Part shown: piece by piece, positions 15,498 through 16,262 of the stretch
How positions within the stretch are numbered: position 1 is the first letter of the stretch
Layout: each line of letters starts with the position of its first letter
Source of the DNA: a virus
Length of the DNA: 33,472 bases
Strand: one strand, 5' to 3'
IMG/VR virus record: IMGVR_UViG_3300044625_001067
Location: 1 to 33,472 of that record
Notes under the pieces: model-generated
What the model was told of the DNA's origin: nothing
Databases searched by the model: none
What the model saw: the letters and a program-made list of their open reading frames with translations, nothing else
Program-made: the position numbers and the translations under genes

Positions 15498-16262
15498 ATG
15501 GAAAAACTTTTAGTTGAAGAAATCAGCCTCACCATGGTGAAGATCCCGTCAGGCAGCTTTTTGATGGGCTCTCCTGAGGACGAGCCGGAGCGATCAGACG
15601 ATGAAGGCCCCCAGCATGGAGTGACGCTGGGCGCCTTCTGGATGGCCCAAACACCGATTACCCAGGCCCAGTGGCGGACGGTGGCGGATTGGCAGAAGGT
15701 AGAGCGTGACCTGGAGCCCGATCCATCGAATTTCAAGGGAGCGAACCGTCCGGTGGAGCGGGTGTGCTGGTTTGATGCGCAGGAGTTCTGCCGCCGCCTG
15801 AGCCAGCGCACGGGCCAACGTTACGTGCTGCCGAGCGAGGCGCAGTGGGAATACGCCTGTCGTGCCGGCAGCAGCACGCCGTTTCATTTCGGGGCCACGC
15901 TGACGCCAGATCTGGCCAACTACAACGGCAATCACGTTTATGGAAATGGCCCCAAGGGCACTTATCGCGAGCAGACTGTTGAGGTGGCCAGCTTTGCGGC
16001 CAATGGCTGGGGCCTGCATGACATGCACGGCAATGTCTGGGAGTGGTGCGCAGACCATTGGCATTACAGTTACAACTTCGCCCCTGGTGATGACCAACCC
16101 TGGCATATACCTGCCGCTGCTGATGATGAACCAAGGCTGCTGCGCGGCGGGTCGTGGGTCAACTTCCCCAGGTACTGCCGCTCGGCTTACCGCTTCATCA
16201 ACCACCCGGACTTCCGCGGCCTCAACGTCGGTTTCCGCGTCTGTTGCCTCCCCCAGGACTAA
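15498..16262 (+). CDS. FGE/SUMF-fold (C-type lectin) protein, candidate retroelement target
   Basis: 254 aa. Standard order for the formylglycine-generating-enzyme fold: [13 protein letters not shown] near residue 13, [83 protein letters not shown] and VGFRV. True FGE needs two Cys near the end of the fold; here only the second position (CRSAYR) is Cys, so oxygenase activity is doubtful. The family also serves as a display scaffold. The C-terminal 30 codons have the NNC pattern of a DGR variable region (see 16158-16229). GC-richer than neighbours, suggesting acquisition from a bacterium. Single gene of P10. Confidence 0.88.
   Translation: [254 protein letters not shown]
16158..16229 (+). other. 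Candidate DGR variable region (VR)
   Basis: In the loop of the lectin fold the surface positions read GTC AAC TTC, TAC, TAC, TTC ATC AAC CAC, TTC, GGC CTC AAC GTC: every one is NNC, as adenine mutagenesis of AAC template codons gives, while intervening framework codons are conserved in type (CRSA, PD, GFRV). The following GGTTTCCGCGTC could be part of an IMH. No template repeat or reverse transcriptase is seen in this window. Confidence 0.55.

Follow-up and report, generated by a model that had tools for sequence, protein, structure and literature searches.

A stand-alone FGE-fold gene in a cyanobacterial jumbo phage is a probable remote target of a host diversity-generating retroelement

How can a phage gene carry the variable region (VR) of a diversity-generating retroelement (DGR) target when neither a reverse transcriptase (RT) nor a template repeat (TR) lies near it? 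The question is raised by a stretch of viral DNA of 33,472 nucleotides (positions 1 to 33,472 of IMG/VR record IMGVR_UViG_3300044625_001067), hereafter the window. Its gene of interest (15498-16262, + strand) encodes a stand-alone protein of 254 aa with a formylglycine-generating enzyme (FGE)/C-type-lectin (CLec) fold, and both an effector domain and any other second domain are absent. In a profile search, PF03781 (FGE-sulfatase) spans almost all 254 aa (E=1.4e-54), and the Treponema variable protein 2y3c is a PDB sequence match (E=1.3e-23). The structure model has a pLDDT of 82.6, and its Foldseek matches are PvdO, FGE, and the same Treponema DGR variable protein; an earlier model from 17 sequences was poor (pLDDT 59) and was set aside. 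Family and fold matches thus predict a protein of the FGE type. It is encoded by the one FGE gene in the whole record, and its VR lies at the C-terminus of the CLec fold, as in DGR targets.

A promoter scan returned nothing beyond chance level. Similar intergenic sequences lie at window 15000-15070 and 16310-16410, each preceding a gene, and read GGGCGG-TTTCC-CCGCCCCCTG, then TTTCTGC...GCAGAAACGGTA-ACTAA-TGAGTT-AAAGGCA; they look like shared control regions. In an intergenic stretch downstream of the FGE gene (window 16980-17045), CCTCAGCAAAC occurs in short tandem copies.

The VR (16140-16256, + strand) aligns without gaps to the TR of a host DGR described below, and the BLAST match between the two covers 16136-16259. 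Within it, codons 221-244 (16158-16229, + strand) include 14 variable codons (221-223, 226, 231, 233-236, 239, and 241-244), which read in order GTC AAC TTC TAC TAC TTC ATC AAC CAC TTC GGC CTC AAC GTC. All 14 are NNC and are set in the framework RGGSW...P..CRSA.R....PD.R....GFRV. With third-base C in 33% of the first 200 codons, the chance of 14/14 NNC is ~2e-7, a figure that is only rough because the variable codons were chosen by the first, sequence-only reading of this DNA. That reading had taken the NNC codons as the outcome of adenine mutation of AAC. The host TR, which encodes AAC at nearly all 14 codons, is an independent check on the observation and bears this out. The variable residues sit in the lectin-type binding region.

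The complete phage record (G000) comprises 277,244 bases of a jumbo myovirus with genes for the large terminase, tail sheath, baseplate wedge, head protease, and DNA polymerase. Gene similarity and MAG bins suggest that the phage is a giant virus of freshwater cyanobacteria. The record contains two adjacent Tet/JBP-type oxygenase genes (G000:145739-149101; L085:12739-16101), a possible sign that the phage DNA contains modified bases. An ADP-ribosyltransferase-like gene (G000:99204-100124) lies close to an ADP-ribosylglycohydrolase gene (G000:102027-102968).

The RT and TR of a self-contained DGR were sought across all 277 kb, and neither was found. A profile search did not find RVT_1, tblastn with the host DGR RT gave zero matches, and a search with the VR DNA found no second copy, returning the VR itself and a 14-bp chance match. 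The sequence-only reading had reported that RT and TR are missing from the window, and the same now holds for the full record. The machinery could still be encoded in a part of the phage outside the record, or be borrowed from a co-infecting phage; G000 lacks a terminal repeat, so it is possibly incomplete. However, no RT was found in about 20 related viral records tested, including the complete circular genomes of Ma-LMM01 and MaMV-DC, and an exact scan with the TR pattern matched zero viral contigs. A DGR of phage origin is therefore improbable. The sequence-only reading had placed the machinery either in another part of the phage or in the host; the host fits, and the rest of the 277-kb record does not.

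Public genomes were scanned with a pattern consisting of the VR framework with the NNC positions left free. The scan returned seven stretches, all in cyanobacterial MAGs, one of which is titled Cyanobium. On contig CAIZQU010000157.1 (L043/L048) of a Cyanobium-like MAG, a DGR is laid out on one strand as an FGE target VR, a small helical ORF, an RT (391 aa, PF00078), and a TR, so that RT, TR, and VR target share a single locus. The small ORF beside the RT looks Avd-like by eye. The window VR is 86% identical to this TR and is changed at 13/26 A positions versus 3/91 non-A positions (Fisher p=6e-8). The adenine-confined difference that marks a DGR target is thus found against the TR of a related host. 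Of the non-A differences, the one at TR offset 24 falls where two further TRs of this genus have A, and another, at offset 87, is variable among relatives. The third, at offset 11, is GGG versus GGC, which suggests a different host species; targets in the LacPavin MAG also have GGG.

The earlier reading had proposed a search for a near-identical repeat with adenines at the variable positions, together with a DGR RT. Both are present in this host-lineage MAG and were not found in the phage record. An exactly cognate TR (GGG TCG, with ATC at codon 244) was not found among 400 family genomes and 42 genus genomes; the search in the host family and genus turned up G011 alone, and in G290 a class related to it. 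In Cyanobium-like MAGs of one genus (L048, L100, L105, L093, L094, and L095), DGR RTs occur with several TR classes, and TR-like matches number up to 16 per genome. DGRs are present in Cyanobium-like picocyanobacteria, which widens the host range given in PMC7517822, where no DGR was reported in Synechococcus and Prochlorococcus.

The stretch at 15527-16305 (+ strand) is homologous, with 86.8% identity at the DNA level, to L097:9861-9083, where a host TIR-FGE gene has its FGE half and 3′ flank; the homology ends sharply at both sides. This relationship was absent from the sequence-only reading. The host relative (L097:9126-10622, - strand), from the LacPavin MAG, is a TIR-FGE fusion (TIR_2) whose closest PADLOC model is ThsB, and a role for it in anti-virus defence is probable. 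The phage start codon at 15498 precedes the homology start by about ten codons. Together with the stop of the homology at the TIR side, this indicates that the phage holds the sensor half without TIR, plus a 3′ non-coding stretch. By sequence, the window gene appears to be the sensor (FGE/CLec) half of a host DGR-target gene, captured without its TIR effector.

Host VR genes are numerous in this genus; they carry TIR, TIR-nSTAND1, NACHT/DUF4062, RES, or WD40 domains N-terminal to FGE, and in some no N-terminal Pfam domain was detected, whereas the phage genes scanned are FGE only (10/10). In a tree of FGE bodies, phage and host genes interleave with 6 changes, at least 2 of them forced. Moderate support places the window gene close to TIR-FGE genes, and the phage gene L005 pairs with the host gene L044 (96/84). 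The truncation of the phage gene argues for transfer from host to phage.

The last 27 bases of the VR (16230-16256, + strand), GGTTTCCGCGTCTGTTGCCTCCCCCAG, are invariant and common to the VRs and the TR, which makes them a candidate IMH. Directly after the gene lies a non-coding 3′ element of 43 bp (16263-16305, + strand), a candidate DGR targeting element. Its sequence is almost unchanged across host targets that differ in effector and across most phages of this class, and no copy follows the TR. The element is missing in phage loci L003 and L005, which may be frozen. Phage BPP-1 needs both an IMH and a downstream element (PMC3240598), and it resembles the window in having a phage gene with an adenine-directed VR, an invariant 3′ end, and a downstream element, the last a candidate here. 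BPP-1, however, has an RT, Avd, and TR of its own, and its target is a tail protein, whereas the window phage record lacks RT and TR. The downstream element of BPP-1 is a hairpin; the candidate here is rich in pyrimidines.

About a dozen other phage lineages carry differing VRs in the same framework, and an RT was detected in none of them. Where amino acids are the same, codons agree with the window at 40-70% of body positions and at 89-95% of VR framework positions in L002, L003, L005, and L007; L004, L006, and L008, which belong to other framework classes, lack this contrast. The first four loci were found by protein search rather than by the VR pattern. Because low framework mismatch in pattern-found VRs comes partly from the search pattern itself, the argument rests on the protein-found loci, the TR, and close phage pairs.

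About ten related phage FGE genes, unlike the window gene, carry two VRs in tandem. Examples lie at L002:8234-8473, L007:10603-10836, and L024:4369-4602, and others occur in L004, L026, L028, L029, L030, L036, L037, and L114; among host VRs and TRs the arrangement was found in 0/38. The FGE body and VR2 share one frame, and the reading of VR1, which lies between the two, is shifted by one base, so that NNC becomes NCN, which encodes Ser, Thr, Ala, or Pro and never gives a stop. An assembly artefact was considered, as 127 is a common assembler k-mer, and was excluded because the spacings are 124, 127, or 130 bp, always 1 mod 3, with differing junctions. Untranslated in that frame, the VR1 copies nevertheless show 3.2% framework mismatch, and 53% of TR adenines are changed in them. 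VR1 is identical in L007 and L028 while their VR2 differs, and the 3′ element follows VR2 only, which suggests that VR1 may once have served as a VR and may now persist, silent, as a linker.

Positive selection on surface residues, acting without a retroelement, would suit variable residues that fall within a lectin-type binding region. It does not account for codons that are exclusively NNC, for differences confined to A relative to a TR that adjoins an RT, for conserved third positions in the framework, or for the same pattern in VR1 copies that are untranslated in that frame. This explanation is hardly credible.

Closely related phages bear on whether VRs are rewritten on phage genomes. L006 and L008 are 99% identical over 6.4 kb. 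One FGE copy there differs from one neighbouring copy at 9/450 body positions and from the next copy at 3/283 positions downstream, whereas the VRs show 16-19 differences in 117, mostly at variable codons. The viral contig L006 contains three consecutive FGE genes (9851-12305), each with a different VR. Between L007 and L028, 21/108 bases of VR2 differ, 19 of them at TR adenines when offsets 24 and 87 are counted, and the surrounding 1.08 kb differs by 8%, VR included. In the complete genomes of the Microcystis phages Ma-LMM01 and MaMV-DC, the FGE body is 94.6% identical versus 79% for the VR, and changes shift from third codon positions to first and second positions in the VR. RVT_1 was not found in either genome. 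These FGE genes with DGR-like VRs (L107:2950-3750 and L108:2920-3750, in cultured MaMV-DC and Ma-LMM01) include one that is annotated “kinase” in the Ma-LMM01 record, and a literature search on Ma-LMM01 and sulfatase-modifying factor found no paper.

The comparison of isolates proposed by the sequence-only reading gave a divided answer: close phage pairs differ mostly in the VR, whereas the window is identical over 16 kb, VR included, to L001, the only other contig for the window phage. That reading would have been abandoned had homologs shown ordinary substitutions and no template; instead, a template lies in a host-lineage MAG and the close pairs differ mostly in the VR. The VRs of L028 and L034 share 98.4% identity, which, with the window and L001, suggests that rewriting, if real, is episodic.

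Such stability also suits an account in which VRs are written in the host chromosome and new ones reach phages only by homologous recombination, without retrohoming on phage DNA. The recent common DNA of the window and host genes, the identical VRs of the window and L001, the identical VR1 of L007 and L028, and the lack of the 3′ element in L003 and L005 all agree with this account. However, the differences within L006/L008 and Ma-LMM01/MaMV-DC cluster at variable codons between near-identical flanks, which would require very short conversion tracts each time, and phages have kept the 3′ element. Transfer by recombination alone is possible but less than likely.

The explanation favoured here, with moderate confidence, is that the window gene is a phage-borne remote target of a host DGR and is rewritten in trans in this phage lineage. 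A jumbo cyanophage would have taken the FGE sensor half from a host DGR-target gene, leaving the TIR effector behind. A host DGR whose TR shares the VR framework would then write the phage VR in trans: template RNA would be reverse-transcribed with errors at adenines, and the mutated cDNA would replace the phage VR, guided by its invariant 3′ end and the retained downstream element. The common framework, invariant 3′ end, and 3′ element are the features through which the host DGR most likely acts on phage DNA. From its relatives, we infer that rewriting occurs on phage genomes, including that of the window phage, and that the latter is a substrate in trans for the true host's RT. This reading is weakened because the cognate TR was not found, because the host assignment draws on MAG bins and gene similarity, and because the pattern could also come from recombination with host VRs.

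We hypothesize that the phage FGE protein acts as a decoy for host FGE sensors or as their dominant-negative partner; for host FGE proteins of this kind, antigen sensing in anti-phage conflict systems has been proposed (PMC10907252). On its own, a sensor half could take up the ligand of the host sensors, or could enter host complexes and block them. More broadly, and quite tentatively, cyanophages may take the sensor half of host TIR/STAND proteins and drop the effector, with the host DGR mutating the copy so that the decoy repertoire tracks host sensors. The support for an anti-TIR decoy comes from gene anatomy and from NAD-related phage genes. The phage encodes the quinolinate synthase NadA (window 22172-23188; Pfam E=1e-118, NCBIfam equivalog), and a NAMPT/NAPRTase-like gene (G000:92946-93815) adjoins a PRPP-synthetase-like gene (G000:94379-95320), a pair that resembles the NARP1 NAD reconstitution pathway (PMC12774641). 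NadA and this pair fit a contest over NAD, as context rather than proof. The phage sponges Tad1 and Tad2 block TIR-type immunity by binding a component away (PMC12043709), the same effect proposed for the window protein; they bind signal molecules, whereas the window protein is a putative decoy likened to them by proposed effect only.

Most of the DGR targets known from phages serve attachment (PMC8144416), and a virion-borne adhesin acting in receptor binding would follow that precedent. Against it, ~160 kb separates the window gene from the tail and head genes, the small genes around it belong to no known families, a second domain is absent from its product, and the closest relatives are halves of TIR-FGE proteins. 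The adhesin function is unlikely.

Among known systems, the remote variable proteins of cyanobacterial DGRs (PMC7517822) are likewise FGE/CLec-fold targets with a C-terminal VR matching a distant TR. Their definition asks for a VR with at least 50% identity to a DGR in the same genome, and the window gene, with 86% identity to the TR, departs from this definition only in the shared genome: the target is in a phage and the TR is in a host-lineage MAG. In Thiohalocapsa PB-PSB1, DGRs act in trans on incomplete loci, and FGE-STAND proteins are putative antigen sensors (PMC10907252). There too, trans-targeting was deduced from VR/TR identity at non-A positions, and FGE sensors are fused to STAND or other defence domains; unlike here, everything lies in one bacterial genome and there is no phage target. 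Treponema denticola variable protein 1 (PDB 2y3c) shares the FGE-type CLec fold and DGR VR but is a bacterial protein, with 25% identity in the fold comparison. With neither RT nor TR in the record, the phage element does not qualify as a self-contained DGR, but it has the fold, VR position, and A-bias of a DGR-type target.

A large DGR survey states that remote targets, whose VRs are not beside the RT, would be missed (PMC8144416). In the literature searched, with subscription papers outside it, no description was found of hypermutation shared between conflicting genomes. If phages do carry targets of host DGRs, hypermutation would be common to genomes in conflict. Sensing by FGE-fused TIR and STAND proteins would also become testable, as a phage that keeps only the sensor half marks the part that is important to the phage.
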